NCBI GenBank assembly: GCA_030625815.1
Contig: DAOUQF010000012.1
Coordinates: forward strand, 1 to 64,000
DNA length: 64,000 nt
From: Eubacteriales bacterium
Lineage (GTDB): Bacteria; Bacillota; Clostridia; Tissierellales; GPF-1
Direction of reading: 5' to 3'
The position numbers and the translations under genes were made by a program. Position 1 is the first letter of the stretch, and each line of letters begins with the position of its first letter. The notes beneath the pieces were generated by a model. That model did no database searches. It was not told the origin of the DNA and saw only the letters and a list, made by a program, of their open reading frames with translations. Shown piece after piece: positions 5,641 to 64,000 of this stretch.

Positions 5641-5641
5641 T

Positions 5642-7533: not shown

Positions 7534-7546
7534 CCAATATTGTGTA

Positions 7547-13582: not shown

Positions 13583-13585
13583 GCC

Positions 13586-14617: not shown

Positions 14618-14675
14618 CCTCTCTCCTCCATCTCTTGTTCTTCTACATGATTTCGATCATAGTCCAATATAACAA

Positions 14676-16226: not shown

Positions 16227-16234
16227 AAGCTCTC

Positions 16235-21298: not shown

Positions 21299-21315
<17 letters not shown>
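20299..21315 (-). CDS. Family 4 glycosyltransferase, mannosyltransferase-like
   Basis: This 338-residue enzyme starts at the ATG at 21315 with GGAGG seven bases upstream. It resembles the MtfB/WbaZ branch of GT4: the N-terminal segment YHLPHNIGYLP is followed by TVVTIHDLIPLDT. The donor half has EEFYLTNGRDRRKNAKVVIEA and the motif LSSFEGFGLPIIEALAMKTP (EX7E). Such enzymes often use GDP-mannose or GDP-rhamnose, consistent with the three GDP-sugar genes immediately upstream. The start overlaps the rmd gene end. Confidence 0.86.
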
Positions 21316-23234
<1,919 letters not shown>

Positions 23235-24272: not shown

Positions 24273-24298
24273 TTTCCCCTCCATATATTCACGTCTGA

Positions 24299-42146: not shown

Positions 42147-42627
42147 CTATCTGCCGTGTTTCTTTAATGTCTCTTCCATATAGTCAAGCAATGTCTCTTT
42201 CATGTTGTCACGCTGTAAAGCATACTCGAGCGTCGCTTCAATAAAACCTTGCTTGTCTCCCACATCATAACGTCGTCCCTCAAAAATATATGCATACATG
42301 GACTCTCTCAAAGCCAGTTCCTTTAACGCATCCGTTAATTGAATCTCTCCGCCTTTGCCTGGCGCAGTTGTTTCCAAGATCTCAAAGATTGCCGGATTAA
42401 TAATGTAACGACCCAAAATTGCTACATTCGAAGGAGCCTCTTCAACTGCTGGTTTCTCCACCAAGCCTTTGACCGTATACACAGTATCCGATACCGGCTT
42501 GCCATCCACAATGCCGTATTTGCAGACATTCTCACGCGCCACTTCTTGTACCCCTAGAATTGATGTTTGGTATTCTTCATAGACATCTATCATTTGCTTC
42601 AAGCATGGCTTTTCATCGTTATTTCCC
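42147..42627 (-). pseudogene. galU: GalU (UTP-glucose-1-phosphate uridylyltransferase), N-terminal third missing
   Basis: Clear GalU sequence begins immediately behind the ugd stop codon: NDEKPCLKQMIDVYEEYQ, GLVEKPAVEEAPSNVAILGR, GGEIQLTDALKELA and YDVGDKQGFIEATLEYAL. The first 110-120 residues, with the GxGTR nucleotide-binding motif and the DD metal site, are absent. No start with a ribosome site fits. The longer frame to 42707 borrows an unrelated reading frame of ugd. The C-terminal part itself has no frame damage, so truncation looks recent and caused by recombination at the ugd junction. Confidence 0.87.
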
Positions 42628-43794
42628 CTAGTCTCTACAATACAAGTCTCTTGTATAGATTTTCTCTTCCACATCTTGAAGATCTTTGTCCATACGATTG
42701 CAGACAATCACATCAGACATCGATTTGAATTCGTCCAGATCACGAATCACTCGAGAATTATAGAACTGATCTTCTTTCAAAGCTGGTTCGTATACGACCA
42801 CTTCAATACCTTTGGCCTTGATTCTTTTCATAACCCCTTGAATAGATGACTGACGGAAGTTATCTGAGTCTGTTTTCATTGTTAAACGATGCACCCCAAC
42901 AATTTTAGGTTGGCGAGCTAAAATCATATCTGCAACATGATCCTTCCGAGTTCGGTTTGCATCAACAATTGCACCCATAATATTATTTGGAACATCCGCA
43001 TAATTCGCTAATAATTGTTTTGTGTCTTTTGGCAAGCAATATCCACCATAGCCAAATGAAGGGTTGTTGTAATGGCTACCGATACGCGGATCCAAGCAAA
43101 CACCATCAACAATTTGTTTCGTATCAAGACCTCGCACTTCCGCATATGTATCAAGCTCGTTAAAATATGAAACGCGCATAGCCAAATATGTATTTGCAAA
43201 CAATTTAATTGCTTCTGCTTCTGTAGAATTGGTGAAAAGAATTTCGATATCTTCTTTTATCGCTCCACCTGCTAAAAGAGAAGCAAACTTTTCAGCTCGC
43301 TCCGATTGCTCTCCAACAACAATTCGAGACGGATACAAGTTATCATATAAAGCTTTTCCCTCACGTAAGAATTCAGGTGAGAAAAGAATATTCTCTGTAT
43401 CAAACATTTCACGCACTTTCTCTGTGTATCCAACCGGTACTGTAGATTTAATTACCATAACAGCATCGGGATTTATCGATAATACATTCGCAATTACCGC
43501 TTCAACAGTACGTGTGTTAAAGTAGTTCTTTTCAGCATCATAATTCGTTGGTGTTGAGATAATTACAAATTCTGCATCCTTGAATGCCATATAATTATCC
43601 GTTGTCGCAACAAGATTCAACGACTTATTAGTCAAATAATCTTCAATCTCCGTATCAATAATCGGTGATTTCTTCGCATTGATCATATCTACTTTTTCTT
43701 GAATAATATCCAATGCAATCACTTCATTATTTTGTGCTAGCAATACCGCATTTGATAAACCAACATATCCAGTTCCAGCTATTGTAATTTTCAT
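42628..43794 (-). CDS. ugd: UDP-glucose 6-dehydrogenase
   Basis: This 388-residue protein starts at the ATG at 43794 with GGTGG five bases upstream. The NAD motif is [20 protein letters not shown]. The catalytic cysteine lies in [20 protein letters not shown], and STPTNYD and [10 protein letters not shown] are family blocks. It oxidises UDP-glucose twice to UDP-glucuronate, an acidic precursor for capsule or teichuronic-type polymers and the substrate of the decarboxylase at 12632. It shares its C-terminal sequence with the decayed copy at 33039-33283. It marks the low-coordinate border of the AT-rich cassette. Confidence 0.95.
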
Positions 43795-43841
43795 TAATTC
43801 CACCTCTGCCTATTAAAAATTAAATGCTTATGATCATATCT

Positions 43842-44756
43842 TTATATTTCCCACATATCTCCAAGCATAATATTATACTGCTGTGGCCATATATACTCAA
43901 ATCCGCTACTATTTGTGAATGTCATCTCTCCAAAATATATTTTCCCCTCAATGTTATACCAATCGACACGCACATGGGAAAACCCTTTGGCTAATCTATT
44001 TGTTAGCTCTATCATTAGATCAAAGTTTTTTGGTTTCTGAATTGGTAAATCAGTATTTTTATATGAATGTTGTTGCCATGGTTGTAATTTCCAATTTATA
44101 TCATACACATTACGCCTATGGTCTGAATAACGATTAGCATCAATCCAACAAAACTTTGTTTCACCATCAAAACATATAAATTTATAATCTTCTAAGTCAT
44201 ACTGGAATGATTCAATGAACTTTTCAGCAATAATTTTCGGTGTTATTAATTTATAATGCATCTCTAATGAATAATATGCATAATTAGTTTTTAACCATTT
44301 ATCGAAATTCCTCTTCGCTTCTCTTCGGTCAAAAGTAGCTTTGTCTAGAACAATATAATTCCAACCAGATCCGTGTGTAGCTTTTAATACAAACTTATCG
44401 GGTAAATTATCGAAATCTATCTGCTCAAAATTATCCCAAACCCCCAATAAAGGTACCAAATACTTTTCGCCGATATTATCCTTTATCCATCCACGAACTT
44501 TATACTTATCCGTTAAGTCTGCTTTGATAAGCGAATTATCATGTAGTTTTGTCCATTGCATTTTTTCGTTATACGTTTGCGGATTATTCATATTCAATTT
44601 ATGTCCAGTCGCTTTTTTATACATATATTTCAATATACTGGGATAAAACTTTTCATCAATATGCTTGAATAAGAAATATCTAATTTCTCTTTTTAACAAC
44701 AGATATTTACAATAGATATCCTCAAATAATGTATTACTCACTCTTCTTTTACGCAC
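43842..44756 (-). CDS. TupA-like ATP-grasp protein (copy 1)
   Basis: This 304-residue protein of the TupA-like ATP-grasp family is found in polysaccharide clusters. Conserved blocks are NPQTYNEKMQWTKLHD, ADLTDKYKVRGWI, LPDKFVLKATHGSGW, KIIAEKFIES, DYKFICFDGE and VRVDWYNIEGKIYFGEMTF. The family name comes from TupA, implicated in teichuronopeptide synthesis in Bacillus halodurans; ATP-grasp enzymes typically join a carboxylate to an amine. A paralogue of the same frame length lies at 50789. The gene is AT-rich like its neighbours. The exact reaction is unknown. Confidence 0.85.
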   Translation of the reverse strand: MRKRRVSNTLFEDIYCKYLLLKREIRYFLFKHIDEKFYPSILKYMYKKATGHKLNMNNPQTYNEKMQWTKLHDNSLIKADLTDKYKVRGWIKDNIGEKYLVPLLGVWDNFEQIDFDNLPDKFVLKATHGSGWNYIVLDKATFDRREAKRNFDKWLKTNYAYYSLEMHYKLITPKIIAEKFIESFQYDLEDYKFICFDGETKFCWIDANRYSDHRRNVYDINWKLQPWQQHSYKNTDLPIQKPKNFDLMIELTNRLAKGFSHVRVDWYNIEGKIYFGEMTFTNSSGFEYIWPQQYNIMLGDMWEI

Positions 44757-44785
44757 TTAATAAACTCCTTATTGTCGAATTAACT

Positions 44786-46099
44786 TTATGAATCATTACG
44801 AAAAACAATATTTTTTGGATTTATGGAATCAAAAATATAGAAAGTATGTATTCTGGTCTCTTTATAAAAAAGCGGAGCTACTATTGTAGTAATTAATTGA
44901 GTCATTAATGTGGCAAAAGCTGCACCCTGAATGCCCATCGTGGGAATTAGAATCCAATTGAGAATAATATTGAAAATCGTACCCCAAAACAAATATTTCT
45001 TTACATATCGATTTTTCTTTTCACATACAATCCAGATTCCTCTAGCTACACCAAGTGATGAAAAAATTGTATACCATACTGCAATCCTCAAAACAAATAC
45101 TGCTGCCAAATACTCTTTCCCGTATAAAATCAGTACAATCCATTTGGCAAATATTGTAATAAACGAAGCAAATCCAATTCCTCCCCATATAATTACTGAA
45201 TATAGTTGCTTCAGTCTTTTAATATACTCATTAGTATTTTGATTGCTCAATTCCATAATAAGTGGTCTTGAAGAGTTTATTAAAGCTTGAGGGATAAACG
45301 TCCATAATCCGCATATAACTATCGCAACTGCATAATAACCGACTTGCTCTCGTCCTAACATCTTTCCAATCATCACTCTGTCAATTTGAGCGTATATCGC
45401 AACCAATAAACCTGAAAAGATAAAGTGATAACTTTGTTTTAACAAGTTTTTTGCTTCGATTAATGAAAACGATAGCTTCCCCCCACTATATTTATGATAA
45501 GAGATAATGCTGAATAAAGAAATAATTGCCAATTCAATAGTAATGGAAAACGCAAACCACACAACATTCTTATTCATGAGCAGTATCATAAGTTTGTATA
45601 AAGCAGTTATTGTGTATGCTGACGCTTTCATAATCGATGATATTTTCGACTTCAGTTTCGACTGATACCAAAACTCAATCAGCTCAAAAGATCGAAACAA
45701 TAATGCTAACGACTGTGCTGCCGCAAGTATCAGAATTAATTTATCATGTGGATTAATAATAGTAATTATACTTATAATGAACACCATCGAAATAAAACTT
45801 GATGCAATACGCATAACTAATCCGCTACCAATTATCATCCCTTCATTATTAGGATGAGTTATTAATTCCTTAACAAAAACTCCTTCCAATCCTAAAGTAC
45901 TAATTGGTATAAAAAAGGCTATAAAAGAAGCCGTATAATTAAGTAGTCCATAATTACTTGGACCTAAATATCTTGCTGTTAACATCGTTAAAATCAAATT
46001 AATTGCCATTTGATAAACTCTCTCAGCAACAAGCCAACTTGCATTCGAAAACATTTTCTTATTTATCATGCGATCATTATAAATATTGGCTATCTTCAT
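44786..46099 (-). CDS. Wzx-like polysaccharide flippase
   Basis: This 437-residue polytopic membrane protein of the polysaccharide transporter family starts MKIANIYNDRMINKKMFSNA, followed by SWLVAERVYQMAINLILTML and ARYLGPSNYGLLNY, the Wzx N-terminal signature. Spans continue to YKETRIHTFYI near the end. It should export the undecaprenyl-linked repeat unit made by the surrounding transferases to the Wzy polymerase encoded just upstream. It is a different family from the MurJ-like protein at 14.7 kb. Confidence 0.9.
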   Translation of the reverse strand: MKIANIYNDRMINKKMFSNASWLVAERVYQMAINLILTMLTARYLGPSNYGLLNYTASFIAFFIPISTLGLEGVFVKELITHPNNEGMIIGSGLVMRIASSFISMVFIISIITIINPHDKLILILAAAQSLALLFRSFELIEFWYQSKLKSKISSIMKASAYTITALYKLMILLMNKNVVWFAFSITIELAIISLFSIISYHKYSGGKLSFSLIEAKNLLKQSYHFIFSGLLVAIYAQIDRVMIGKMLGREQVGYYAVAIVICGLWTFIPQALINSSRPLIMELSNQNTNEYIKRLKQLYSVIIWGGIGFASFITIFAKWIVLILYGKEYLAAVFVLRIAVWYTIFSSLGVARGIWIVCEKKNRYVKKYLFWGTIFNIILNWILIPTMGIQGAAFATLMTQLITTIVAPLFYKETRIHTFYIFDSINPKNIVFRNDS

Positions 46100-46112
46100 C
46101 CATTACCTCAGT

Positions 46113-47360
46113 TCAACTTGAATTACTAATTCTATTCATTTTATTTATTAAACCTTGTATCAAACCAAATTGCAGTATAAATATCATAAAAAGGATATAA
46201 TGGCCTCCCAAAATTGGTTCAACCATACAATTTAACAATACCGATATTGATATCGAGAAAACAAACAATTTGAATCCTCTATGTTGGTAAGTCAGTCTAA
46301 AGACAACAATAATGCTGTGAATATATTTAATTGTTATAAATATTAGCATCGTAAATGGTACTATACCTGTAACATATGCAACATCTAACCACAAATTATG
46401 TGGTGCCGATAAATCAATATTTGCTCTTGAACCCCCAAAAGGAAAATCAGCTAAACCAACAATTGTCTTTTCCCATGCATCAAATCGCGCATTATGCGAA
46501 ATGTTTTTATCTAGTAGCTGCATTCTTAAATAAAAGTTGCTATTTTCATACAAATTTCGTATATTAAATACATTCTGAGTATAGAGGAACAGACCAAAAA
46601 CTATAATGATAGTCATTGCAAACAGAAATCTTAAATATACCTTCCCATTAGATTTATTCCAAAGCAAATACATAAAAGCGCATAAAACGATATTAATGAA
46701 CAGTATTATTAATAAAGTTCTATTAGACATAATCAAAGTTTCAATTATTGAAATTACGGCAAAAATAATAACAATGACTCTTGTTTTTATCTTCATCTCC
46801 CTTTTAACAAATGCTCCTATTGGTAACATTGCGCTTATTAATATAAATCTACTCCCTTGAGTTGTTGCTGCAGTTCTTGAGCTCGTCCAAATATCATAAA
46901 CATATCTCTCGTAATATGTTATTTCCCCAAATTTAATTAAATGAACTGCCAAATTAACGCTTGAATATAAAAACAAACTAATTGCCAATAAAACAATTAT
47001 ATTCTGGAATCGTTTATACGACTCTTCAATGTCTGTTACCTCATATATAATTCTAAACCCTATAGCAAACAAAAGCGGTGGAAGTAAGAACTCTCTATAA
47101 CCTCGAAAAAAATTATATTCCCCATAATAATTTAAAAAAAGTGAATAAACCAATCCAAAAGAAATCACTTGAATTAAAGTTACAAAATACGACTGTGGAA
47201 GTTTCTTATTCTTCAAATCCATGTATAATATTAGCAATATACCACCAAAAAAAACAATTCTTGTACCAAGCCCGAATAAATTAATACCCCACATCACTAT
47301 CCAGAAATACACTACTATTTCAATATTAGTTTTTTTCCCCCAATTATTGTTTTTTTTCAT
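46113..47360 (-). CDS. Wzy-like O-antigen/capsule polymerase
   Basis: This 415-residue very hydrophobic protein has about 11-12 spans and one larger extracytoplasmic loop (roughly residues 260-310, containing YENSNFYLRMQ and FDAWEKTIVGLADFPFGGSR). The short block SAPHNLWLDVAYVTGIVPF resembles the conserved His loop of O-antigen polymerase/ligase families. Position next to Wzx and two GT2 genes supports a repeat-unit polymerase. Sequence identity within this family is always low, so the call rests on topology and context. Confidence 0.82.
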   Translation of the reverse strand: MKKNNNWGKKTNIEIVVYFWIVMWGINLFGLGTRIVFFGGILLILYMDLKNKKLPQSYFVTLIQVISFGLVYSLFLNYYGEYNFFRGYREFLLPPLLFAIGFRIIYEVTDIEESYKRFQNIIVLLAISLFLYSSVNLAVHLIKFGEITYYERYVYDIWTSSRTAATTQGSRFILISAMLPIGAFVKREMKIKTRVIVIIFAVISIIETLIMSNRTLLIILFINIVLCAFMYLLWNKSNGKVYLRFLFAMTIIIVFGLFLYTQNVFNIRNLYENSNFYLRMQLLDKNISHNARFDAWEKTIVGLADFPFGGSRANIDLSAPHNLWLDVAYVTGIVPFTMLIFITIKYIHSIIVVFRLTYQHRGFKLFVFSISISVLLNCMVEPILGGHYILFMIFILQFGLIQGLINKMNRISNSS

Positions 47361-48261
47361 CCATCAACCTTCTAACTTTTAAATATTCAATGAAATAGTC
47401 AAAAATATATTTCAAAAAAATGAAACCACACTCTCTTGAATATTGAAAAAGGATACCAAAAGCTTCTAGATATTGACCCTGTCTGCAATAACTCCAAAAC
47501 ACAGTTGAAAAATGTTTCGCATAGACACGATTCTTAAAACCGCGTTTTTTTTTGTCTATTAGCACAATTTGGTTATCGAATTCCAACAAAAATTGTTTTT
47601 TTAAATTTTCAAGTTCCTTACCGATTAACGAATTATTGACTTCATTTCCTTTTATTTCTATTAAGGGTTTTCCCACAACACCAATTCTATATTTTTCAAA
47701 GAAACGTAACATGAATTCATAATCTTGATGTCGTTTGTAAGACTCATTGAACCCATTTATATTTTTATATGATTCATACCTTAGCATTAAGGAACTCGTA
47801 AATGGTGTAAATGTTAACGACAACAAATCTTCAGTTAAATCACCTTCTCTATCAGATGTCACTAAAATACCATGCTGATATCTCCAACAATAAACAGCTT
47901 GAAAGCATTCATTCTTCTCTAGAAATTCAACTTGAAGATGGATTTTCATTGGTAAAAAAATATCATCATCATCAAGCAAACAAATATATTTCCCAGTTGC
48001 ACTCCGAAATCCGGTGTTACGTGCAGCTGATCCATTTAAATTTTTTTCATGTTTTATGTAACAAACATTATGCATAAGTGCATATCTTTCCATCATTTTT
48101 TCAGTTTTTCTTCTGTGCAATGTGTTTGGTTCGTTATCATCAACAACAATTATTTCTGAATTTTCATATTCTTGATTACGTACTGATTCAATTGCAAAAA
48201 TCAAAGATCCATTGTTTTTATAAGTTGGGATAATAATACTCACCTTTGGATAAATAATCAT
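47344..48261 (-). CDS. Family 2 glycosyltransferase
   Basis: This 305-residue enzyme opens KVSIIIPTYKNNGSLIFAIE, with VVDDNEPN, NGSAARNTGFRSATGKYICL and LLDDDDIFLP as the DxD region. KRHQDYEFMLRFFEKY fits the acceptor-side block of the family. The C-terminal part is basic and without clear spans. It overlaps the polymerase gene start by 17 bases. Donor and acceptor are unknown. Confidence 0.87.
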   Translation of the reverse strand: MIIYPKVSIIIPTYKNNGSLIFAIESVRNQEYENSEIIVVDDNEPNTLHRRKTEKMMERYALMHNVCYIKHEKNLNGSAARNTGFRSATGKYICLLDDDDIFLPMKIHLQVEFLEKNECFQAVYCWRYQHGILVTSDREGDLTEDLLSLTFTPFTSSLMLRYESYKNINGFNESYKRHQDYEFMLRFFEKYRIGVVGKPLIEIKGNEVNNSLIGKELENLKKQFLLEFDNQIVLIDKKKRGFKNRVYAKHFSTVFWSYCRQGQYLEAFGILFQYSRECGFIFLKYIFDYFIEYLKVRRLMDEKKQ

Positions 48262-48302
48262 AAATTAGTAACCTCTCACTCATTAAATCATATCCTAATG
48301 GT

Positions 48303-49097
48303 TTAGTCGTTATAAGGTTTTAGCAAATTATAACTTTTCACACCCTTTAACAAACTCGATAAGATAATTGAACTTGAAAGCTTAACGTGCTTCTTCAACC
48401 TCAACAAAAAATATAACACTAAGATATATTTTGATTTCGGAAAAGCAGCAGCTAACATCGCCCCTTTATCGTAAAAAAACTTTTCATTATACCCTCGAAA
48501 CCATGAAGAATCCGAAAAATCCACAGTTGCAATAGTTGCTGGATATTCATAAACCTTTAATCCTCTCTTTCGTAATTCCCATAAAAAAATAGAATCTTCA
48601 CCCGATGAGTAAATACTACCTGCGCCAAAATTCTCATCAAACCCTAATTTACTTTCACGAATTGAGTTTCGCTTAAATGCAATCCTTACAGATCCATAAG
48701 CCTTATATTTGGGTGCAATTCTAATCTTATGAATACTATCTGTCGGTTCATGTAAGTTGATCCGATTTATATTAAATACAATTACATCTGCATCACTTAT
48801 TTCCTGAAAAGCTCCAGTGATAACTTCAACATAGTTTTCAACATACTCTACATCATCATCACATAAGATGCATATATCTCCGGTTGCATTTTCTAAAGCA
48901 ATATTCCTGCTTTTTGACAGCCCTATACTACTTGACGATATTGTTTTTATTTTATTTCCATTTACAATAAACTCATCATAATAGTCATTCCCGCATTGAT
49001 TAACAATAACAGCATCAGATTTAATTCCTCTAACCTTGCAAAATTCTTCTATGCGACTTTCATTCATACATGATAAAAGAACTTCAATATTCAACAT
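48303..49097 (-). CDS. Family 2 glycosyltransferase, divergent
   Basis: This 264-residue GT-A protein has an atypical N-terminus (MLNIEVLLSCMNESRIEEFC). The core motifs are clear: SSIGLSKSRNIALENATGDI, ILCDDDVEYVEN as the DxD and GAGSIYSSGEDSIFLWELRK. It ends in a short basic helix. It is the gene nearest the IS element at 49.1-50.8 kb, and its start codon is only about 45 bases from the IS end, so its transcription could be affected by the insertion. Confidence 0.82.
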   Translation of the reverse strand: MLNIEVLLSCMNESRIEEFCKVRGIKSDAVIVNQCGNDYYDEFIVNGNKIKTISSSSIGLSKSRNIALENATGDICILCDDDVEYVENYVEVITGAFQEISDADVIVFNINRINLHEPTDSIHKIRIAPKYKAYGSVRIAFKRNSIRESKLGFDENFGAGSIYSSGEDSIFLWELRKRGLKVYEYPATIATVDFSDSSWFRGYNEKFFYDKGAMLAAAFPKSKYILVLYFLLRLKKHVKLSSSIILSSLLKGVKSYNLLKPYND

Positions 49098-49141
49098 TCA
49101 CAACTCCTAATCAATATTTATTCATGAGCATAAAAACAATC

Positions 49142-50767
49142 TATATAGTGTTTGCTGATTAACCTTTAAAGCATTGATTTCACTGACTTTCAGCCGCATG
49201 TTTGATATAATAAATGCAAGGGTATTTCGCAATTAGAATCATTTTCCTTGCACTTATCTATAGTATTTCCTCAAAAAGGAGCCCAAAACCATGTATAAAG
49301 CCACTGATCAATCACAACCTACTTTTCTTGATTTCAATCAGCCGCTAGGACTTAAAATGAATCCTCAAAACCGTTGGGTAAAAATAGCGAATTTGGTTCC
49401 GTGGGAACAATTTGAGGAAAGATATGCCTTATTATTTCCCAGTAATATTGGAAATGTAGCTAAGCCTTTACGAATGGCTTTAGGCTCATTAATTATACAA
49501 ACAAAGTATGGATTTTCTGACAAAGAACTGGTTGAACAACTTACAGAGAATCCGTATTATCAGTATTTCATAGGACTTCCTGGTTATCAGGAAGCTGCAC
49601 CTTTTGAATCTAGCACACTGGTTGCATTTAGAAAGCGAATCAGTGCTGATATGTTGATGGAGGTCAATGAATATCTTTTGGAAATGGCGAATCATGATAA
49701 AAAAGATGATGATGATTTCAAACCGGGTTCTAGTGGTTCTTCGGACAACCCAAGCAACACCAAAAATAGCACAAACAAAGGTACTTTAATCTTAGATGCG
49801 ACCTGCGTTCCTTCCAACATACGTTATCCGCAAGACTATTCGTTGCTCAATGAAGGAAGAGAAAAGCTAGAAAAAATCATCGATCGTTTCTGCAGTGACT
49901 ATTCACTTTCAGCGCCTAGAATGTATCGAAAAGAAGCTAGAAAGAATTACCTTGCTCTTGCAAAATCCAAAAAACCAGGCAAGAAGAAAATTAGGAAAAT
50001 CATTCGCAAACAGCTAGGTTATGTAAAACGCAATCTTGGCTATTTAAGTAACTTCATGATGCAAGGGTATGCACCAACTGAAAAGGAAATCAAATTTCTC
50101 GAAACGATCACCACATTATATGAACAGCAAAACTACATGTATGAGGAAAAAACACATTCAGTTAAAAATCGGATTGTTAGTATAGGTCAACCCTATTTAA
50201 GGCCAATCGTCAGGGGTAAAGCAAAGAATCCCGTTGAATTTGGTGCTAAGTTTGATCTTAGTATAGATGAACATGGTTACGAGAGAATCGAAGAACTTTC
50301 CTTTAACGCCTATAACGAAAGTACGATCCTTCAAAATGCTATTGAACGATATAAGGAACGCACTGGGCATTATCCAAAACGAGTTTTGGGAGATCAAATT
50401 TATAGAACCAGAGGTAATCGTAGCTATTGCAAATTAAAAGGCATTCGTTTATCGGGTCCCAAATTAGGACGACCATCAAAAAACAATGAATATGATAAAA
50501 AGATTGAATATCAGGATAATGTAGACCGTATTGAGGTTGAAAGAGCATTCAGTTTAGCTAAAAGATCTTATAGCCTAGGGTTGGTAAAAACAAAGCTGAA
50601 AGAAACCACAATGACTGCTATTGCATTGTCAATATTTGTGATGAATTTATTTAAAATTCACTCACGCTTTTTCATATACTTTATTTGGAATTTATTATTT
50701 GAGCGTAAATTTTCATTGGCGATAGTCCCACAATAAAAAATGAGAATTATTCAGTAGACACTATATA
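49142..50767. mobile_element. Insertion sequence with imperfect terminal inverted repeats
   Basis: The left end reads TATATAGTGTTTGCTGATTA (49142 on) and the right end, read inward from 50767, TATATAGTGTCTACTGAATA. The two agree at all but three positions over about 21 bases. A single complete transposase gene lies between them on the plus strand. I do not see an unambiguous target duplication because the ends and flanks are TA-rich. The element lies between two minus-strand polysaccharide genes and seems to interrupt none. Confidence 0.8.
49291..50736 (+). CDS. IS5/IS1182-type transposase (DUF772-like N-terminus)
   Basis: This 481-residue protein has AAAAAGGAG seven to eight bases before the ATG. 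The N-terminal domain shows WVKIANLVPWEQFEERYA, MALGSLIIQTKYGFSDKEL and PFESSTLVAFRKRI, the pattern of IS5/IS1182 transposases. Acidic catalytic candidates lie in LILDATCVPSNIRYPQD and RVLGDQIYRTRGN, with the C-terminal glutamate in RIEVERAFSLAKRSYSLG. A low-complexity acidic, Ser- and Asn-rich stretch around residues 135-165 is typical for the group. The gene is intact and probably active. It is the only large plus-strand gene in the window. Confidence 0.87.
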   Translation: MYKATDQSQPTFLDFNQPLGLKMNPQNRWVKIANLVPWEQFEERYALLFPSNIGNVAKPLRMALGSLIIQTKYGFSDKELVEQLTENPYYQYFIGLPGYQEAAPFESSTLVAFRKRISADMLMEVNEYLLEMANHDKKDDDDFKPGSSGSSDNPSNTKNSTNKGTLILDATCVPSNIRYPQDYSLLNEGREKLEKIIDRFCSDYSLSAPRMYRKEARKNYLALAKSKKPGKKKIRKIIRKQLGYVKRNLGYLSNFMMQGYAPTEKEIKFLETITTLYEQQNYMYEEKTHSVKNRIVSIGQPYLRPIVRGKAKNPVEFGAKFDLSIDEHGYERIEELSFNAYNESTILQNAIERYKERTGHYPKRVLGDQIYRTRGNRSYCKLKGIRLSGPKLGRPSKNNEYDKKIEYQDNVDRIEVERAFSLAKRSYSLGLVKTKLKETTMTAIALSIFVMNLFKIHSRFFIYFIWNLLFERKFSLAIVPQ

Positions 50768-50788
50768 TACTCATAAATGATTTCTAAC

Positions 50789-51688
50789 CTACAATGGCAA
50801 ATTAAATAAATTTCCTACATACATGTCACCATCTTCATTATAATAATTGGCCATACCCGCTGCGGGTGTAAAAGATAATTCTCCAAAGATAATACGGTTC
50901 TCGCAATCATACAAATCAACTCTTACAAACGGAAAGCTTTTTGACAATTTCTCACATATTTCTAACGCTTCAGATAGTAACTGTGGTTTCTTTAATTGAT
51001 AATCAGGTTCCATTTCACCAATGTTTACAACATTCCATTCAGTATCAAAAAAAGACAATCTTAGATTTTCTTCACGCTCAGTACAAACCAGTATTAATTT
51101 TGGTTTGCCATCAAAACAATATACTTTATAATCTATAGGCATATCTCCGTTAGCAGTCTCAATAAATTCTTCACAAATAATCTTCCTTGAAATTTTGTCA
51201 TAATGAGGTTCAATATTATATAATCCAAAATCATCTTTCATCCATTTTTCAAGCAAGTGTTCTGCTCTTGAAATATCAAAGTGATTCTTATCACGACATA
51301 TAATATTATATCCACACCCATGATTACATTTTAATGCAAATTTATTAGGAAGCTCGTCCCATCTCACTTCATCAGTACTATCCCAAACACCTAAAATTGG
51401 ATTTAAACATTCTTTGCAATCATTTTGAATTAGATATTCGCGCACCGCATATTTATCAGAACATTGAACAGCCAGGTTGTTATAAGGACAAAAGTACAAC
51501 TTGTACCATTGAATTTTCTCATTAAAAGTTCGAGGTGAATTCAAATCAACTCTTTTCCTCAGAACAACCCAATAATAGAACTTCGTCAATATTTCTCGTG
51601 GTAACACTTTAGCTACAAACTTTTGAATTAATCTTCGAACTGCATAGAAGTTATCTTGGCGGATTTGTCCAAAATCATTTTCAGTCAT
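50789..51688 (-). CDS. TupA-like ATP-grasp protein (copy 2)
   Basis: This 299-residue protein starts at the ATG at 51688, six bases behind GAGGAGG. It shares the blocks of the paralogue at 43842: NSPRTFNEKIQWYKLYF, SDKYAVREYLIQND, LPNKFALKCNHGCGYN, RKIICEEFIET, DYKVYCFDGKPK and VRVDLYDCENRIIFGELSFT. Divergence between copies is large, so they probably act on different residues or acceptors rather than being a recent duplication. It lies between the IS element and a membrane glycosyltransferase. Confidence 0.85.
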   Translation of the reverse strand: MTENDFGQIRQDNFYAVRRLIQKFVAKVLPREILTKFYYWVVLRKRVDLNSPRTFNEKIQWYKLYFCPYNNLAVQCSDKYAVREYLIQNDCKECLNPILGVWDSTDEVRWDELPNKFALKCNHGCGYNIICRDKNHFDISRAEHLLEKWMKDDFGLYNIEPHYDKISRKIICEEFIETANGDMPIDYKVYCFDGKPKLILVCTEREENLRLSFFDTEWNVVNIGEMEPDYQLKKPQLLSEALEICEKLSKSFPFVRVDLYDCENRIIFGELSFTPAAGMANYYNEDGDMYVGNLFNLPL

Positions 51689-51712
51689 TTTCATCCTCCT
51701 CACTTAACAATA

Positions 51713-52879
51713 TCATCTGGTACTTTCTGCTTTTTCCCAAAACGATTTTGCATTACCAGATAATATATTATAAACACCAACCCATTGAGAAAAAATAGTT
51801 ATTGTATAATAATAAATCATTTTAAACAAATTCCCTCGAATCCATCGTTTTTTCCACATATATGCTGTTAAAAAAAATAGTCCCTGAAATAGTAGTGCGC
51901 ATCTATAGAATACTGAATCTGGGAATAATACGAAGCTACATATAAAAACAAAAAAATGACTGCTCCATAATAAATAACGGCATGTTCGATGTCCGAAATA
52001 AAAGTATGAAAACCATTTATATTTAAAAATGTTGAGTATTCGTATATCTGGCAAAATAAGCCTTAGTATTTCACGATTCATTCTAATTTTTCTATTAAAC
52101 TCATCTTCCATTAACTCTCCAGCTTTTTCATATGCTATTGCATCATGATTACATATTGCACGTTTTTTCTTCAAGGAAAACTGTAACGGCATTTCTGAAT
52201 CATGACAACGTATAGGTTCAATATCAAAGTAGTCATCATTTCTACATGCATATAATGCGCCGTTTCCTGCAGTTATTGTCTGAATTTTACTTTCAATTTC
52301 ACGTATTGTGAGATCTTTTTCCCAATAATTTGATTCTGCCGAACTCGTAGCTGCACAATCAGAATTGCTAATTGCTAATCTTCCTGAAACATAAGAAATT
52401 TGAGGGCTCGTAAATGTTGCCATAAGTTCTATTATTGAGTTCGCATCAAGCATTGAGTTCGCATCAGTCATAACCAAAAATTCAGTATCAACTTGTTTTT
52501 GAGCCTCATTTTGTGCATTTGTTTTACCTTTTCGCTCATTAACTTCAAAAAGTCGAATTTTCAAACTCTGGTGATCTAACGCAAAATTTTTAACGATCAT
52601 ATTTGTACTATCTGTACTATTATCAGAAACAATAAGAAATTCAATTCTGTCCTTAGGATATTTCAAATCAATTATATTATTCAATTTATCTTCAATTACT
52701 TTATCTTCATTATGCGCTACAACCATTACAGTAACAGATGGTTTTAGATTATAGTCTTTTACAAGTTCTCTATTTTTATATAGCTTTTCAATTATTTTAA
52801 GTGACATTGAATATCCTATCATAGCCCAAAAAATTATGAATGCACTTATATAAAATAATGTTTTATATATTACTTCCAA
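51713..52879 (-). CDS. Membrane-bound family 2 glycosyltransferase (CESA-like)
   Basis: This 388-residue protein has an N-terminal membrane helix (LFYISAFIIFWAMIGYS) followed by a GT-A domain with VTVMVVAHNEDKVIEDKLNN, VSDNSTDSTN, MTDANSMLDANS (DxD) and RKIRMNREILRLIL. Three C-terminal hydrophobic segments follow. The layout is like processive or lipid-acceptor transferases of the hyaluronan synthase/IcaA type, but the QxxRW motif is not clear, so a single-sugar transfer is equally possible. It is 40 bases downstream of the FemAB-like gene. Confidence 0.83.
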   Translation of the reverse strand: MEVIYKTLFYISAFIIFWAMIGYSMSLKIIEKLYKNRELVKDYNLKPSVTVMVVAHNEDKVIEDKLNNIIDLKYPKDRIEFLIVSDNSTDSTNMIVKNFALDHQSLKIRLFEVNERKGKTNAQNEAQKQVDTEFLVMTDANSMLDANSIIELMATFTSPQISYVSGRLAISNSDCAATSSAESNYWEKDLTIREIESKIQTITAGNGALYACRNDDYFDIEPIRCHDSEMPLQFSLKKKRAICNHDAIAYEKAGELMEDEFNRKIRMNREILRLILPDIRILNIFKYKWFSYFYFGHRTCRYLLWSSHFFVFICSFVLFPDSVFYRCALLFQGLFFLTAYMWKKRWIRGNLFKMIYYYTITIFSQWVGVYNILSGNAKSFWEKAESTR

Positions 52880-52918
52880 TATGATTCTCCTTGTAGCTCT
52901 TATTTGGATTTATCTTTT

Positions 52919-53977
52919 CTAGCTTCTATAAGCTGGGAAAAAGTTAGTTTTTGATTTAAATGATTCTTCCTTTTCTCTAATACTCAACAACTCAGAGTAA
53001 GCAGCCTCAATAAATATTTTATTCCCAATGCAAAAATCATAATCCGATTTTCGATTAAAACCATTTTTGAATTTGAACAATCCATCTTCTTTGCTACCAA
53101 GGCCTCCTCCCAAATGAAATTTTTCATGTCCATTTTCATACCCCCATACAGCGGCCTCATATAACAGCAAATTCATGGATGCCAATTTCTGATATTTTTT
53201 ATCCAATGCAGAAAGATGATAATGCATTTGTCTATTTGCATGTAATATAATAGCCATAGCAATTATTTTTCCTTCATATACTGCATAAAAAAATAATGAG
53301 TTTTGTTTTAAATCATCCCGTATACAAGAATAAAATTCTTTATTAAAATAATAATAGCTTGTTGCATTATCTCTATCCATTGTAGCATTATACAATGGTA
53401 TGAACTCATCAATTAATGATTGTCCTTTTCCCAAAAAAACCTTAACACCATTTTTTTGAGCTTTCCTAACCATATTTCTGGTTTTACTGGTTAAATCACT
53501 CCAAATTTGATCCTTGTTTTTCAACTCAATTGCAATGGTTTTACCCAATGTACTTGTATGATAAATCAATTCAGCACACTTCGAATTCTTAATAATTGGA
53601 TGAAATCTTACAAACTCACTAACTATATTGTTCGTTTTGCAATATTGTGTGTATTCAAAATTTAACTCATTTAAATTCTCAGCTGTAATATTCCCTTCAA
53701 CTATCAGACCACCATAACCATATGGAGTTGATAAATCAAATATCATATCCCTCGTCATCTTACCAATTAAATTTTCATCTGCACCAACGTCTCTTTTCAT
53801 TACAACGTTAATAGCTCGAATATCATCATTCTTGAAATATATTAATAAAGGTTCTCCATCACCATGGAGTTGAAACGCTTTTACATAACCTGATAAGTAA
53901 TAAACATCATAATTCTCAAACTGCTTAACAATATCATCCCATCTATTACTTTCTTCAATTGAAATAACTATGAACAT
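52919..53977 (-). CDS. FemAB/GNAT-fold aminoacyl- or acyltransferase-like protein
   Basis: This 352-residue protein starts at the ATG at 53977 with GGGAGATT upstream. It is of the peptidoglycan-bridge (FemAB) and BioF2-like group: WSDLTSKTRNMVRKAQKNGV is the signature basic helix and is followed by FYAVYEGKIIAMAIILHANR, YHLSALDKKYQKLASMNLLL and HLGGGLGSKEDGLFKFKNGF. Classical Fem enzymes transfer amino acids from tRNA to lipid II. Members inside glycan loci are thought to attach an aminoacyl or acyl group to a nucleotide sugar or lipid-linked sugar. No coiled-coil Fem arm is evident. Confidence 0.8.
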   Translation of the reverse strand: MFIVISIEESNRWDDIVKQFENYDVYYLSGYVKAFQLHGDGEPLLIYFKNDDIRAINVVMKRDVGADENLIGKMTRDMIFDLSTPYGYGGLIVEGNITAENLNELNFEYTQYCKTNNIVSEFVRFHPIIKNSKCAELIYHTSTLGKTIAIELKNKDQIWSDLTSKTRNMVRKAQKNGVKVFLGKGQSLIDEFIPLYNATMDRDNATSYYYFNKEFYSCIRDDLKQNSLFFYAVYEGKIIAMAIILHANRQMHYHLSALDKKYQKLASMNLLLYEAAVWGYENGHEKFHLGGGLGSKEDGLFKFKNGFNRKSDYDFCIGNKIFIEAAYSELLSIREKEESFKSKTNFFPAYRS

Positions 53978-54042
53978 TACAAAATCTCCCAACTAAACTT
54001 TAAATCAAATTAATCTCCTAGATTATAATTCAATCTTTTCTC

Positions 54043-54675
54043 TTAATTATGATTCCTAATATCAGCTAAATTCCCTTCGACTTCATCTGTGTTTTCGGCA
54101 ACATTTTTCTTATGTAACACCGTATGAAACGTATTAATGATAATTACAAAATCACTTCTGACTGTTAACATATTTACATATTTCACATCTAGTGAAAGAC
54201 GCTTTTCCCACACTATATAATTTCTTCCATTTATTTGCGCTAAGCCTGTTAATCCAGGTCTTACAGTATGTCGTGTCTTCTCATTTTTTGTATAATGTGG
54301 TAAATATTCAATCAATAAAGGTCTTGGACCAACAATACTCATATCACCTTTGAAAATATTGAATAATTCAGGAAGTTCATCCAAGCTTGTACTTCTTAAA
54401 AACATGCCAAAACTTGTTATTCTTATACTATCCGGAAGTAATTCATCATTCTCATCTCTTTCGTCAGTCATCGTTCTAAATTTGTACAAAGTAAAGATCT
54501 TTTCATTCAATCCAGGTCTTTTCTGTTTGAAGATGATCGGACTACCGAGCTTTATTCTCACAAGAATTGCAACAATAATTATTATTGGACTTAAAACGAT
54601 GCTCGCGAATAAAGAAAGGATGAAATCCATCGGTCTCTTAAAGAATCGTTCGTATATTCCCTTTTTCCTTTGCAT
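54043..54675 (-). CDS. Polyprenyl-phosphate sugar-1-phosphate transferase (PglC/EpsL type)
   Basis: This 210-residue monotopic phosphoglycosyltransferase has an N-terminal hydrophobic hairpin (RPMDFILSLFASIVLSPIII), GSPIIFKQKRPGLNEKIFTL, FRTMTDERDEND, and the catalytic region RSTSLDELPELFNIFKGD then MSIVGPRPLL. Its small size is that of PglC/WcaJ C-terminal enzymes. It starts repeat-unit synthesis by loading a sugar phosphate on undecaprenyl phosphate. The adjoining EpsN/PglE-like aminotransferase suggests a 4-amino or diacetamido-trideoxy sugar as first residue. The matching dehydratase and acetyltransferase are not in this locus. Confidence 0.92.
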   Translation of the reverse strand: MQRKKGIYERFFKRPMDFILSLFASIVLSPIIIIVAILVRIKLGSPIIFKQKRPGLNEKIFTLYKFRTMTDERDENDELLPDSIRITSFGMFLRSTSLDELPELFNIFKGDMSIVGPRPLLIEYLPHYTKNEKTRHTVRPGLTGLAQINGRNYIVWEKRLSLDVKYVNMLTVRSDFVIIINTFHTVLHKKNVAENTDEVEGNLADIRNHN

Positions 54676-54681: not shown

Positions 54682-55794
54682 TCACCACAATTCTTTTATA
54701 ATCTTTACAATTCTCACTAAATCTTCTTCAGTCATCTTCGTATCACTAGGCAGGCAAACACCATTCTCAAACAGTTTCTGTGAAATTCCTTCTCCAACGA
54801 AATCATATTGCTCAAAGAATGGTTGCATGTGCATGGGCTTCCATATCGGTCTTGATTCGATGTTTTCTTTTTCCAAGGCTTCCATAACATCGATTGGTTT
54901 GACTTTGCCTTCAAGTGTTAAACAACTCAGCCAGAAGTTTGGTTCATTCCAGTCATTCACTGGCATCATTTTCACACCTTCAAGCTGTTCCAACTCTTGC
55001 TTGTAGAACTCGAAGATTTTTTTCTTTTTCGCTACGCGTTGATCAAGCACCTTTAATTGTCCTCGTCCAACACCGGCAACCACATTGCTCATTCTGTAGT
55101 TGAATCCTAACTCGCTATGCTGGTAGTGTCTTGCTTGATCCCTCGCTTGTGTTGCCCAGAATCTCGCTTTTTTGATTCGTTCTTCATCATTGGAAACCAA
55201 CATACCGCCACCCGAAGTGGTGATGATTTTATTTCCGTTAAAGGAAAATATCCCATACTCTCCAAATGTGCCTGTTGCTTGCCCTTTATATGTAGTTCCC
55301 AAACTCTCCGCCGCATCTTCAATTAACGCTACATTATACTTTTTACAGATTTCTGTAATCTTATCCATATCCGCTGAAAGACCATAGAGGTGCACAACCA
55401 AAACGGCTTTCACTTCAGGATATTTATTAAAGGCTTCTTCCAAAGCTTTGGGATCCATATTCCAAGTTTCTTCATCACTATCGATGAATACCGGAATTGC
55501 CTTTTGATAAATAATTGGATTTGCTGTTGCTGAAAAGGTAAGGTCTTGACAGAACACGATGTCACCTTCGCCTACATTTGCGGCTTTTAAAGCAAGATGA
55601 ATCGCTGCCGTTCCTGCAGACAACGCTGCTGCGTGTCCAATGCCAACGTACTTGGCTAACTCTCTTTCGAATTCATCCACGTTTTTCCCAAGCGGAGCAA
55701 TCCAATTCGTATCAAATGCTTCTTTAACATATTCCTGCTCATAGCCTTCTTCACTCATATGGGGCGATGCAAGATAAATCCTTCTATTCATCAT
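54682..55794 (-). CDS. DegT/DnrJ/EryC1/StrS aminotransferase, EpsN/PglE-like
   Basis: This 370-residue PLP enzyme starts at the ATG at 55794 (MMNRRIYLASPHMSEE), behind AAGGAAG. The opening IYLASPHM and FDTNWIAPLGKNVDEFE are characteristic of EpsN/PglE, which transaminate UDP-4-keto-6-deoxy-GlcNAc. IEDAAESLGTTYKG and FSFNGNKIITTSGGG contain the cofactor-binding Asp and the Schiff-base Lys. It is the first gene of the operon, about 110 bases behind a consensus promoter. Codon use is less AT-rich than in the genes that follow. Confidence 0.92.
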   Translation of the reverse strand: MMNRRIYLASPHMSEEGYEQEYVKEAFDTNWIAPLGKNVDEFERELAKYVGIGHAAALSAGTAAIHLALKAANVGEGDIVFCQDLTFSATANPIIYQKAIPVFIDSDEETWNMDPKALEEAFNKYPEVKAVLVVHLYGLSADMDKITEICKKYNVALIEDAAESLGTTYKGQATGTFGEYGIFSFNGNKIITTSGGGMLVSNDEERIKKARFWATQARDQARHYQHSELGFNYRMSNVVAGVGRGQLKVLDQRVAKKKKIFEFYKQELEQLEGVKMMPVNDWNEPNFWLSCLTLEGKVKPIDVMEALEKENIESRPIWKPMHMQPFFEQYDFVGEGISQKLFENGVCLPSDTKMTEEDLVRIVKIIKELW

Positions 55795-55909
55795 TCTTTC
55801 TTCCTTCCCACTACAAAAAGACAGCACAAAAAACCTAGCCATCTTCTCTCCAATTTTTACGCCTTACTTATCTGTCAAAAAAGTTGTTTTTTTGTAACTT
55901 CCAATGTTT

Positions 55910-59690: not shown

Positions 59691-60659
59691 CTATTTCTCT
59701 TCTTTGTATTGCTGCATATACCACCGAATGACCGTCTCCAATTCGACCTTGAAGTTCGCTGTCGGTTCCCAATGGAGTTCTTGTGTCAGCTTGGTGTGGT
59801 CCACCGCGTATCTGCGGTCATGGCCCAAGCGGTCCTGTACATGCGTAATTAGGTTCTTTGGTTTCTTCGTTACCTTTAGAATTGTCTCCACAATCTCCAT
59901 ATTCGTGACTTCATTGTCCCCGCCAATGTTATAGACCTGACCAGGAGTTCCCTTATCAAGAACCAGCTTTACGGCATTGCAATGGTCAACCACATGAATC
60001 CAATCCCGAATTTGAAATCCGTCCCCGTAAACCGGCAGCGGATTGTTTTCCATGGCTCGCTTCACCATTAATGGGATGAGTTTTTCAGGATATTGATGGG
60101 TGCCGTAATTGTTGCCGCATCGGGTAACGAGTACGGGGAAACCATAGGTCTTGTAATAAGAAAGGGCTAACAGATCCGCAGCCGCCTTGCTGGCCGAGTA
60201 GGGGCTGTTGGGCTGAATCTTTGATTCTTCAGTGAACTTGCCGGTTCTTCCCAATGAACCGTAGACCTCGTCCGTGGAGATCTGCAAAAATCTTGTGCCC
60301 TCTCTGTTTCCCCAGGCTTCCCTTGCCGCGTCCATCAGGGCTTGGGTCCCCAGTATATTCGTGGATAAAAATACGCCGGGGTCTTCAATGCTTCTGTCAA
60401 CATGGGACTCGGCTGCAAAGTTGACTACTCTCGTAATCCCATAGGTCTCGAAGAGTTCCTTTAATAGTGCTCTATTATTAATATCCCCTTTTACGAAGAT
60501 ATAATTCTCTTTATTTTCCACAGCCTTGTTGTTTTCTCGGTTGCCCGCATAGGTGAGGGCGTCGAGGTTGATGACGGTGTCTTTTGTTGTCTGGATCATG
60601 GTTCTGATAAAGTGCGAACCAATAAAACCGGCGCCGCCGGTCACTAAAATTCCGTTCAT
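59691..60659 (-). CDS. rfbB: dTDP-glucose 4,6-dehydratase
   Basis: This 322-residue SDR has ILVTGGAGFIGSHFIRTMI, NFAAESHVDRSIEDP, the STDEVYGSLG active-site Asp-Glu and SPYSASKAAADLLALSYYKT (Tyr, Lys), all signatures of RmlB. RNYGTHQYPEKLIPLMVKRA-type text (NNYGTHQYPEKLIPL) is the usual end block. It makes dTDP-4-keto-6-deoxyglucose, but the other rhamnose genes (rmlA, rmlC, rmlD) are not in the window, so they must be elsewhere or the product feeds another sugar. Confidence 0.95.
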   Translation of the reverse strand: MNGILVTGGAGFIGSHFIRTMIQTTKDTVINLDALTYAGNRENNKAVENKENYIFVKGDINNRALLKELFETYGITRVVNFAAESHVDRSIEDPGVFLSTNILGTQALMDAAREAWGNREGTRFLQISTDEVYGSLGRTGKFTEESKIQPNSPYSASKAAADLLALSYYKTYGFPVLVTRCGNNYGTHQYPEKLIPLMVKRAMENNPLPVYGDGFQIRDWIHVVDHCNAVKLVLDKGTPGQVYNIGGDNEVTNMEIVETILKVTKKPKNLITHVQDRLGHDRRYAVDHTKLTQELHWEPTANFKVELETVIRWYMQQYKEEK

Positions 60660-60752: not shown

Positions 60753-62795
60753 TTATTTATGTTTCTTGTTTGTTCCTTTATGTGTTTCTTTTTTTATTTT
60801 TTTATTTGCAGTTTTGACTTGCGCCTTTTTCGGCTGCTTTAATCCATTTACCGCACCAACAGCAAGACCAAAAACCATCCAGAAGATCGGCGCTACGGAA
60901 ATTACGCTGTCATTGAAGATTCCTGCTGCGGCATAGGCGAAGACCATGGCTACCAAGGTAATGGTTACAATGTCTTCCTTGTTGCCCAACAAAAATTTCT
61001 TAATGGATTGGAAGAGAAGCAAAATTCCCATGGCCAATACGGCCAAGAGTGAAACTACTCCCGTATTCACGCCCATCTGCAAATACCAGTTATGGGGCTT
61101 ATCGTACAAGAGGTAAGTCGGCTGCCTGATATTCCACTTGGTAATATGCTCATACTGCGGAAATTCAAATACAAAACTGTCGGGTCCCGCTCCCAAAAGA
61201 ACATGATCCGCAAGCAGCGGTATGGTTCTTGACCAGATATATCCCCGATAGGTAAACAGGGCTTCCCTGCCTTCAAATCCGAAACGCGCCGGGCTGTCAA
61301 TCTGAACCGGTTCGTGGTTTCTTCCTTTGTAGGAAAGTCCCTCTTTATCAATAAGAACCCAAATATCAAATTTCGGTATGGTGGCGAAGATCTGATCCTC
61401 TACTTCCTTGATCTTGGTCAACACGAGTTCATAGTCTTGGTAGCCTTCAGCCTCCACTTGATAATGGCCTGGGCTGGTATTGTCAAAGCCTAGGTTGTTG
61501 CCTTCGGCATCAAGCGCCATAACGCGATTCTCTTTGATCTCAAAGGCAATGTAGTCGCCGTCGGCTTCAGTAATTTGAATTTGTTCCGTGGTAATCACAA
61601 CATCTTGCAGTTTTTCTCTTTCACTGTTTCGTTCCGCTCGTCTTTCCTCTTGGGTTTCTCCATAATAGAGCTGATAGGTAGCATCTTGCAAAGGACTGTA
61701 AATAAGGGCGGCACCCACAAGAACCAAGCCCGCATAGACAATGGTAATGCCCAGCAAAACCTTGTTCTTCTCTCTTCTGTTAAAGATCACCCGGTAAAGG
61801 ACTGTTGCCGCTATAAAGAAGAGGAAATACACCGCAAGAGTCAGGTAATCCTGCTGAATCAGACGGTTTCCGTCCCACATGTTCGCGTACACCATGCTCA
61901 TTACAACGACCATGCCAGCCCAGGCAACGACCAGTGCTGCAAGCTGTTTTTTGTTTTTCTTCATGGCTTCCGGCATCAAAAGCACCATAATAATCAGACC
62001 GGCGGCAAAGCCGACCAAACCGGCTGAAGATCGGGAACCGACCAGGGCTGAAAAGCTGACCAGATTAACAACCAGATAAAAGATTCGCTGTTTCTTCCAA
62101 CCGACGGCTTCCATAAAATAACCCAAGGAAAGCAGGCTCGCCATGGCGGCGTAACTGCCCATAAAATTCGGGTTATAGAGGCTGCCGACAACCCCAGAGT
62201 AGAATGACGTTTTCACTGTTTCGCCTACGGTATCCCATACCGCTTGCGGGAAAGCAAAGAAACGAAGGAACCCTTCCGTATAAGGGTCGTAACCGACATA
62301 TTGAAGAAATCCGATCATCCCCATTACAATGGCCGAGGCCATCAAAGTATGGGTTAAAAGATTGACTGCTTGTCTTTGTCTGCCATAGTGAATACATAGA
62401 AAGAAGATGGCGAGATACGACAACAACACCCATGCCCCTTCAAATCGATCCGTCAATCCGCCGAATGCAACATCATAAGGACTTAAAAGCGCTGAAAAAA
62501 GAATTGTCACGCCATAAATCCCCGCAAAAACAGTGTAGCTGCTCTTCTCCAGATGAATGCGCTTCTTCGCCACCTGATAGAGAAAGATTCCAATGGCAAT
62601 TAAGACAAAGAAAATCAACGCCTTCGCCTTAATCAAGGAATACAAGTCATTAAATCCTCCTCCGTTATAAAAGGCTGTTTCATCTGGTGTATATCGGTGA
62701 AGGTGCAAACGGAACAAAAGCGGCACAACCCCGATAATCAGGGCCAAAGGCAGCAGCTCTTTCCATCTCACTTCCCGGTCAACTATATTCTTCAT
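60753..62795 (-). CDS. O-antigen ligase/polymerase-family membrane protein
   Basis: This 680-residue protein starts at the ATG at 62795, four bases behind GGAGGG. About 12 membrane spans are interrupted by a large extracytoplasmic insert (roughly residues 365-560) rich in Glu, Tyr and Gln. The Wzy_C core is seen in HVLLGAGPDSFVFEFPQYEH and the catalytic-type His loop YDKPHNWYLQMGVNTGVVSL. It probably joins or polymerises lipid-linked glycans on the outer face. The C-terminal tail is strongly basic. Its first 90 residues are mirrored in the chimera at 24299-24883. Confidence 0.88.
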   Translation of the reverse strand: MKNIVDREVRWKELLPLALIIGVVPLLFRLHLHRYTPDETAFYNGGGFNDLYSLIKAKALIFFVLIAIGIFLYQVAKKRIHLEKSSYTVFAGIYGVTILFSALLSPYDVAFGGLTDRFEGAWVLLSYLAIFFLCIHYGRQRQAVNLLTHTLMASAIVMGMIGFLQYVGYDPYTEGFLRFFAFPQAVWDTVGETVKTSFYSGVVGSLYNPNFMGSYAAMASLLSLGYFMEAVGWKKQRIFYLVVNLVSFSALVGSRSSAGLVGFAAGLIIMVLLMPEAMKKNKKQLAALVVAWAGMVVVMSMVYANMWDGNRLIQQDYLTLAVYFLFFIAATVLYRVIFNRREKNKVLLGITIVYAGLVLVGAALIYSPLQDATYQLYYGETQEERRAERNSEREKLQDVVITTEQIQITEADGDYIAFEIKENRVMALDAEGNNLGFDNTSPGHYQVEAEGYQDYELVLTKIKEVEDQIFATIPKFDIWVLIDKEGLSYKGRNHEPVQIDSPARFGFEGREALFTYRGYIWSRTIPLLADHVLLGAGPDSFVFEFPQYEHITKWNIRQPTYLLYDKPHNWYLQMGVNTGVVSLLAVLAMGILLLFQSIKKFLLGNKEDIVTITLVAMVFAYAAAGIFNDSVISVAPIFWMVFGLAVGAVNGLKQPKKAQVKTANKKIKKETHKGTNKKHK

Positions 62796-62858
62796 AATTC
62801 CCTCCAACTTATAATCTGCCTTTATTTTACACCAAACCATTACTGTCTTGTGAAAAAT

Positions 62859-63806: not shown

Positions 63807-63822
63807 CGCCTCCCCCTCCCTT

Positions 63823-64000
63823 TTAATTTCGTTTCATCAGCCATTTCCACTCCGGCGGATTAAAGAGCCGGAGCACAATCAAAAACACAATGGCGCCGGT
63901 GACAACAACAGCCCCGAGTCCGCCTAATTTAATCAATAAATTCATATGAGTCAAATAATACGGTCCCAAGACCTGCTGCAACTGCCAAATCACCAATCCC
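63823..64000 (-). CDS. Membrane protein C-terminus, probably MurJ/Wzx-type flippase (cut by the window edge)
   Basis: An open frame from the window edge to a stop at 63823 encodes about 58 residues: LVIWQLQQVLGPYYLTHMNL, a hydrophobic span (LGAVVVTGAIVFLIVLRLF) and a basic tail ending WKWLMKRN. A final span followed by a short basic tail resembles the end of MurJ/MviN proteins, like that at 14676-16226, and the operon context fits. With so little sequence the family is an inference. Confidence 0.5.
   Translation of the reverse strand, partial: GLVIWQLQQVLGPYYLTHMNLLIKLGGLGAVVVTGAIVFLIVLRLFNPPEWKWLMKRN

Follow-up and report, generated by a model that had tools for sequence, protein, structure and literature searches.

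A polysaccharide operon of the Wzx/Wzy type, whose product may carry two chemically different amide substituents, was found in a 64,000-nucleotide stretch of a Eubacteriales genome (positions 1 to 64,000 of contig DAOUQF010000012.1, GenBank assembly GCA_030625815.1; hereafter the window). It encodes two TupA-like ATP-grasp proteins (TupA1 and TupA2), a FemAB-family transferase, and UDP-glucose 6-dehydrogenase (Ugd). We infer both amide-forming reactions, their substrates, and their order from gene content, protein families, the fold of TupA1, catalytic residues, and gene neighborhoods. In this account, the repeat unit would be assembled on undecaprenyl phosphate, and its two substituents would come from separate modules. 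A 4,6-dehydratase encoded elsewhere in the genome, together with PglE and PglC, would synthesize a 2-acetamido-4-amino-4,6-dideoxy sugar and load it onto the carrier, and FemAB would transfer an aminoacyl group from aminoacyl-transfer RNA (tRNA) to the 4-amino group, which is the normal site of the acetyl group added by PglD. Glycosyltransferases would extend the chain, including a uronic acid derived from UDP-glucuronate (Ugd), and TupA2 and TupA1 would use ATP to activate the carboxylate of this in-chain uronic acid and couple it to an amine, either an amino acid or an amino alcohol, comparable to Cj1438C of Campylobacter jejuni. Wzx would flip the product and Wzy would polymerize it. Taken loosely, with the substrates of either half adjustable, this two-module account is given a probability of about 0.5.

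A preliminary description of this DNA had reported two TupA-like genes, a FemAB-like gene, and ugd in one locus, and Pfam and TIGR profiles detected all of them above cut-off. The genes are real, but the interval drawn around them fitted less well: ugd lies just outside it, the FemAB open reading frame (ORF) ends at 53992, and an insertion sequence intervenes.

FemAB in the position of PglD

In the canonical module PglF-PglE-PglD-PglC, which corresponds to EpsC-N-M-L of Bacillus subtilis and leads to undecaprenyl-PP-diacetylbacillosamine in B. subtilis and C. jejuni, PglD/EpsM acetylates the 4-amino group (PMC10653937). The window cluster resembles this module in having adjacent PglE and PglC genes at its start, namely a LegC/PglE-type sugar aminotransferase (54682-55842, minus strand; DegT PF01041, 344 bits), predicted to make the UDP-4-amino sugar, and a PglC/EpsL-type phosphoglycosyltransferase (54043-54675, minus strand; PF02397, 202 bits), predicted to load the first sugar on undecaprenyl phosphate. 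The aminotransferase scores 400.6 bits with TIGR04181, slightly below the cut-off of 420, and is 70-80% identical to the products of PglE genes that adjoin PglF/PglD/PglC in other genomes. Unlike in the canonical module, PglC is followed by the FemAB gene (52919-53992, minus strand; PF02388, 46.6 bits, cut-off 24) in the slot usual for PglD, and the PglF-type dehydratase is encoded on another contig, unlinked to the cluster. PglD/EpsM is missing from both the cluster and the genome, since no match to PglD_N (PF17836) was detected in the window genome (98.5% complete).

The best single comparison is offered by one related locus (L212; loci are cited by our own handles). Its order is PglF-PglD-PglE-PglC-GT2-TupA-Wzx-Wzy-Ugd, with PglD and without FemAB, compared with PglE-PglC-FemAB-GT2c-TupA2-...-Ugd in the window (identity to the window: PglE, 71%; PglC, 60%; GT2, 43%; TupA, 38%; Ugd, 65%). 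In two further clusters containing TupA and Ugd (L064 and L111), PglD comes directly after PglC. Among PglC gene neighborhoods, 23 had PglD only, 14 FemAB only, one both, and 23 neither (Fisher p 0.0025); this test is suggestive rather than clean, because the sample was partly collected through FemAB and the apparent exclusion therefore partly reflects locus sampling.

FemAB homologs were present in 19 of the 398 sampled genomes of the phylum. In the 22 FemAB loci inspected they mostly adjoin PglC and/or PglE, and TupA was found in none of these loci. Likewise, searching the 80 named TupA loci gave no clear FemAB, just two weak matches, in L137 and L093 (E about 1e-4 to 1e-3); the former fits no Pfam family. 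We therefore rejected the idea that FemAB and TupA form a single conserved system, and these neighborhoods suggest that FemAB belongs to the PglE/PglC amino-sugar module, apart from TupA. The single new decoration system proposed in the preliminary description is therefore unsupported. The set of genes that it singled out is indeed unusual, but several TupA genes per locus are usual (10 of the 80 loci); the unusual part is FemAB together with TupA.

A phmmer search of FemAB against PDB matched only FemX and aminoacyl-tRNA-dependent peptide synthases. When a profile of 25 FemAB sequences was searched against the whole PDB, FemX was retrieved at 5e-20, and all other matches were Fem-type aminoacyl-tRNA-dependent transferases. 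K309 is invariant across the 25 homologs and aligns with Lys305 of Weissella FemX, whose catalytic role has been reviewed (PMC12945691). According to the same review, the FemX-like protein Orf11 (BD-12) aminoacylates (glycylates) an amino sugar (PMC12945691). The window protein thus shares with FemX/FemABX transferases and Orf11 the family, the catalytic lysine, and, as predicted, an amine acceptor, and differs from them in sitting in a polysaccharide initiation module. These similarities point to an aminoacyl-tRNA-dependent N-aminoacyltransferase. It is unlikely that the protein is instead a GNAT-fold N-acyltransferase that depends on acyl-CoA, or a later-acting enzyme like HfsK, in which case no amino acid would be transferred and the TupA part would stay unchanged. 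Such an activity would agree with the additional match of PF13480 (GNAT-like) to FemAB (52919-53992) and with the example of HfsK, a Fem-like protein of the Caulobacter holdfast exopolysaccharide whose chemistry is unresolved (PMC5362036), but the solved relatives found with the profile are all Fem-type and aminoacyl-tRNA-dependent, and the catalytic lysine of FemX is invariant.

We therefore put forward the replacement of PglD by FemAB tentatively, as a proposal that falls a little short of an even chance. FemAB would aminoacylate the 4-amino sugar in the stead of PglD, in a tRNA-dependent rather than acetyl-CoA-dependent reaction, and the initiating sugar would carry an amino acid from the translation pool. 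N-acetylalanyl 4-amino-6-deoxy sugars and the D-alanine amide of N-acetylgalactosaminuronic acid (GalNAcA) occur in bacterial polysaccharides (PMC3210612), and there is therefore precedent for both products proposed here. No description of a FemAB swap in a bacillosamine-type module was found in the literature searched, whose coverage was partial; this substitution appears to be a new variant, which the TupA side is not. Amino-acid substituents of bacterial polysaccharides are well known chemically, and in the literature found, the enzymes that add them to amino sugars are mostly unassigned. If FemAB does replace PglD, it would point to a specific candidate family behind N-aminoacylated 4-amino sugars, surface-glycan chemistry would be tied to charged tRNA, and the FemAB module would be spread across the phylum.

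Several variants of these gene sets were also observed. At L057 (G125:C2:60000-77000), positions 6853-9906 contain PglF-PglE-PglC, then three tandem FemAB genes, and then a PylC-like ATP-grasp gene. The three FemAB proteins possibly carry out successive aminoacyl additions; if FemAB acts as proposed, this would hint at a sugar bearing an oligo-aminoacyl chain. A triad of a GNAT acetyltransferase, a remote pyridoxal-phosphate-dependent enzyme, and FemAB recurs at five loci (L016, L018, L040, L054, and L055). At four others (L204, L217, L224, and L216), a PylC-like ATP-grasp gene adjoins PglC; the gene next to it was confirmed as a HAD phosphatase in L204 and L217 and is a neighbor of similar size in L224 and L216. 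A similar pairing of ligase and phosphatase is known from Campylobacter capsule synthesis.

TupA1 and TupA2 as predicted amidoligases

Both TupA1 (43842-44756, minus strand; 201 bits) and TupA2 (50789-51703, minus strand; 168 bits) match PF14305 far above its cut-off of 25. They had been called divergent, which agrees with their identity of 33-34% and with the phylogenetic tree, where TupA1 groups with L058, close to L060/L063/L064, and TupA2 groups with the TupA of L212 (support 100/81). Because the two proteins fall into separate, well-supported clades, a recent duplication was ruled out. In an alignment of 46 homologs, both window proteins included, the Lys/Lys/Glu/Arg/Asp/Glu set of ATP-grasp enzymes is invariant or nearly so (K84, K125, and E178 in both; R263, D265, and E277 in TupA1; R261, D263, and E275 in TupA2). 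Assigned by motif rather than by superposition, these positions would correspond to the ATP-grasp lysines, the hinge Glu, the Arg, and the metal-binding Asp/Glu; ExT replaces the usual ExN of ATP-grasp in the TupA-like family.

An AlphaFold2 model of TupA1 (predicted local distance difference test score, pLDDT, 93) has the ATP-grasp ligase fold. It resembles carboxylate-amine ligases, such as D-Ala-D-Ala ligase (Ddl; Z 14.9) and ArgX/LysX (Z about 13), and its best Foldseek match was the L-amino-acid ligase RizA. A sequence search of PDB with TupA found no relative, but the fold search did give matches. It is thus quite likely that the TupA proteins act as carboxylate amidoligases in this locus. 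PF14305 is widespread (one genome scan gave at least 574 stretches that match it), and two genomes of the same genus have three and four TupA copies. Of 10 long TupA proteins that were scanned, at least seven carry a fused glycosyltransferase. In addition, L115 (Epulopiscium sp.) has five tandem TupA-containing genes at 1633-12016, encoding 645-697 amino acids, and the single one scanned is a TupA-GT2 fusion.

The TupA half is already known in kind from a family of capsule amidoligases. Cj1438C of C. jejuni amidates the C6 carboxylate of glucuronate within the chain in an ATP-dependent reaction, using (S)-serinol phosphate or ethanolamine phosphate (PMC11800397; PMC11800379), and HS19.11C likewise amidates in-chain glucuronate with serinol phosphate in vitro (PMC13276843). 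The window TupAs were set beside these domains by description. They are similar in being TupA-like ATP-grasp ligases in a capsule locus with Ugd and in being coupled to a GT2 glycosyltransferase, which is fused in Campylobacter (Cj1438 and HS19.11; PMC11800397; PMC11800379; PMC13276843) and encoded by an adjacent gene in the window (GT2c-TupA2). In contrast, the window has two divergent stand-alone genes with no dedicated phosphatase seen beside them, and export would use Wzx/Wzy with an undecaprenyl carrier. Since Cj1438C does not accept UDP-glucuronate (PMC11800397) and acts on in-chain glucuronate, UDP-glucuronate would probably fail as a ligase substrate for the window TupAs. The TupA side extends this recently characterized family to many diverse loci.

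Which amine is used is approached here through neighboring genes. PGA_cap (poly-gamma-glutamate capsule) genes adjoin TupA in L111, L241, L236/L114, L097, and L084, and alanine dehydrogenase-like (AlaDh/PNT) genes lie near TupA in L011 and L074; an amino acid is therefore a plausible substrate. Neither gene type occurs at the window locus: a Pfam scan detected no PGA_cap among the genes at 27-64 kb of the window, and a distant CapA-like ORF is located on another contig (L139). It is somewhat unlikely that TupA1 and TupA2 attach amino-alcohol phosphates (serinol phosphate or ethanolamine phosphate) rather than amino acids. The only biochemically characterized TupA-like domains found do exactly that, but next to the Pfam-scanned window genes neither a phosphatase nor an amino-alcohol-phosphate pathway was seen, and in some loci amino acids are indicated by the AlaDh/PNT and PGA_cap genes that accompany related TupAs.

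The presence of PGA_cap next to TupA in these relatives recalls teichuronopeptide. The window locus shares with Bacillus halodurans tupA the TupA-like family, Ugd, and an acidic polymer with a glucuronate part (in the window, predicted from genes), but it lacks a poly-gamma-glutamate gene, which makes the teichuronopeptide link of the preliminary description weak at this locus. A combined system along the lines of teichuronopeptide, with one acidic sugar receiving an aminoacyl or peptide chain through the joint action of FemAB and the TupA ligases, is very unlikely. The location of all genes in one operon and the amino acid-related neighbors of TupA in relatives would fit such a system, but FemAB and TupA are not found together across the 80 TupA and 22 FemAB loci, FemAB tracks PglC/PglE, and PGA_cap is absent around the window locus. 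The earlier proposal of an acidic glycan with amide substituents is well supported, with family precedent and intact catalytic residues behind it; its single combined ligation system is not.

Points against the two-module account and integrity of the operon

Besides the sampling of PglC neighborhoods, several observations weigh against the two-module account. The single-sequence AlphaFold2 model of FemAB (pLDDT 34.5) gives no confident fold. A GNAT acetyltransferase also lies beside FemAB at about half of the FemAB loci, which is a main point against the FemAB part: its substrate could be either the sugar or the amino acid once added, so at those loci N-acylation may not be due to FemAB alone. 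With PglF outside the cluster and RmlB nearby (59691-60659), a dTDP-linked amino sugar is possible instead. Nucleotide-sugar dehydrogenases are not enriched at TupA loci (24 of 76, compared with nine of 38 other polysaccharide loci; p 0.51), so that ugd linkage was dropped as proof of a glucuronate acceptor. In addition, the insertion sequence may silence half of the operon.

The operon runs on the minus strand from 55842 to 42147 with short gaps and is broken only by this insertion sequence (49141-50768, plus strand), which contains a transposase ORF at 49291-50736 (PF13586/PF05598), has imperfect terminal inverted repeats (14 of 16 positions matching), and is present in a single copy in the genome. 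It parts TupA2 from GT2b, GT2a, Wzy, Wzx, TupA1, and Ugd. A C-terminal fragment of GalU (42147-42707, minus strand) follows ugd immediately and overlaps its end; it covers only positions 134-261 of TIGR01099 and lacks the N-terminal half. The insertion, the truncated galU, and the lack of PglF and PglD in the cluster could mean that the cluster is decaying and that no polymer is made in this strain. We consider this improbable, given that all biosynthetic ORFs other than galU look full length and that an intact galU (L246) and the PglF-type dehydratase are encoded elsewhere in the genome.

Other genes of the operon and neighboring clusters

Ugd, the predicted source of UDP-glucuronate, is complete (42628-43803, minus strand), with three UDPGDH domains and a TIGR03026 score of 335 bits (cut-off 190). 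The remaining genes, all on the minus strand, encode GT2 glycosyltransferases matching PF00535, namely GT2c next to TupA2 (51713-52879), GT2b (48303-49097; 35 bits), and GT2a (47344-48261; 103 bits), as well as a Wzx flippase (44786-46099; PF01943/PF13440) and a Wzy-like polymerase (46113-47360). The polymerase scores 30.6 bits with PF04932, slightly below the cut-off of 31.7, and L212 has the same family.

Two other polysaccharide clusters were observed. One adjoins the operon (window 60753-64000 plus L141, contig C8 to 72120). Besides RmlB and two AMP-binding (CapK-like) genes, it contains a GT2-MurJ fusion and a third ATP-grasp gene, which belongs to PF14397, a sugar-transfer-associated family. 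The other (window 12632-24883) encodes GDP-mannose pyrophosphorylase-like and GDP-mannose dehydratase-like proteins, a MurJ-like flippase, and a group 1 glycosyltransferase, and includes a short PglC-like gene at 24299-24883.

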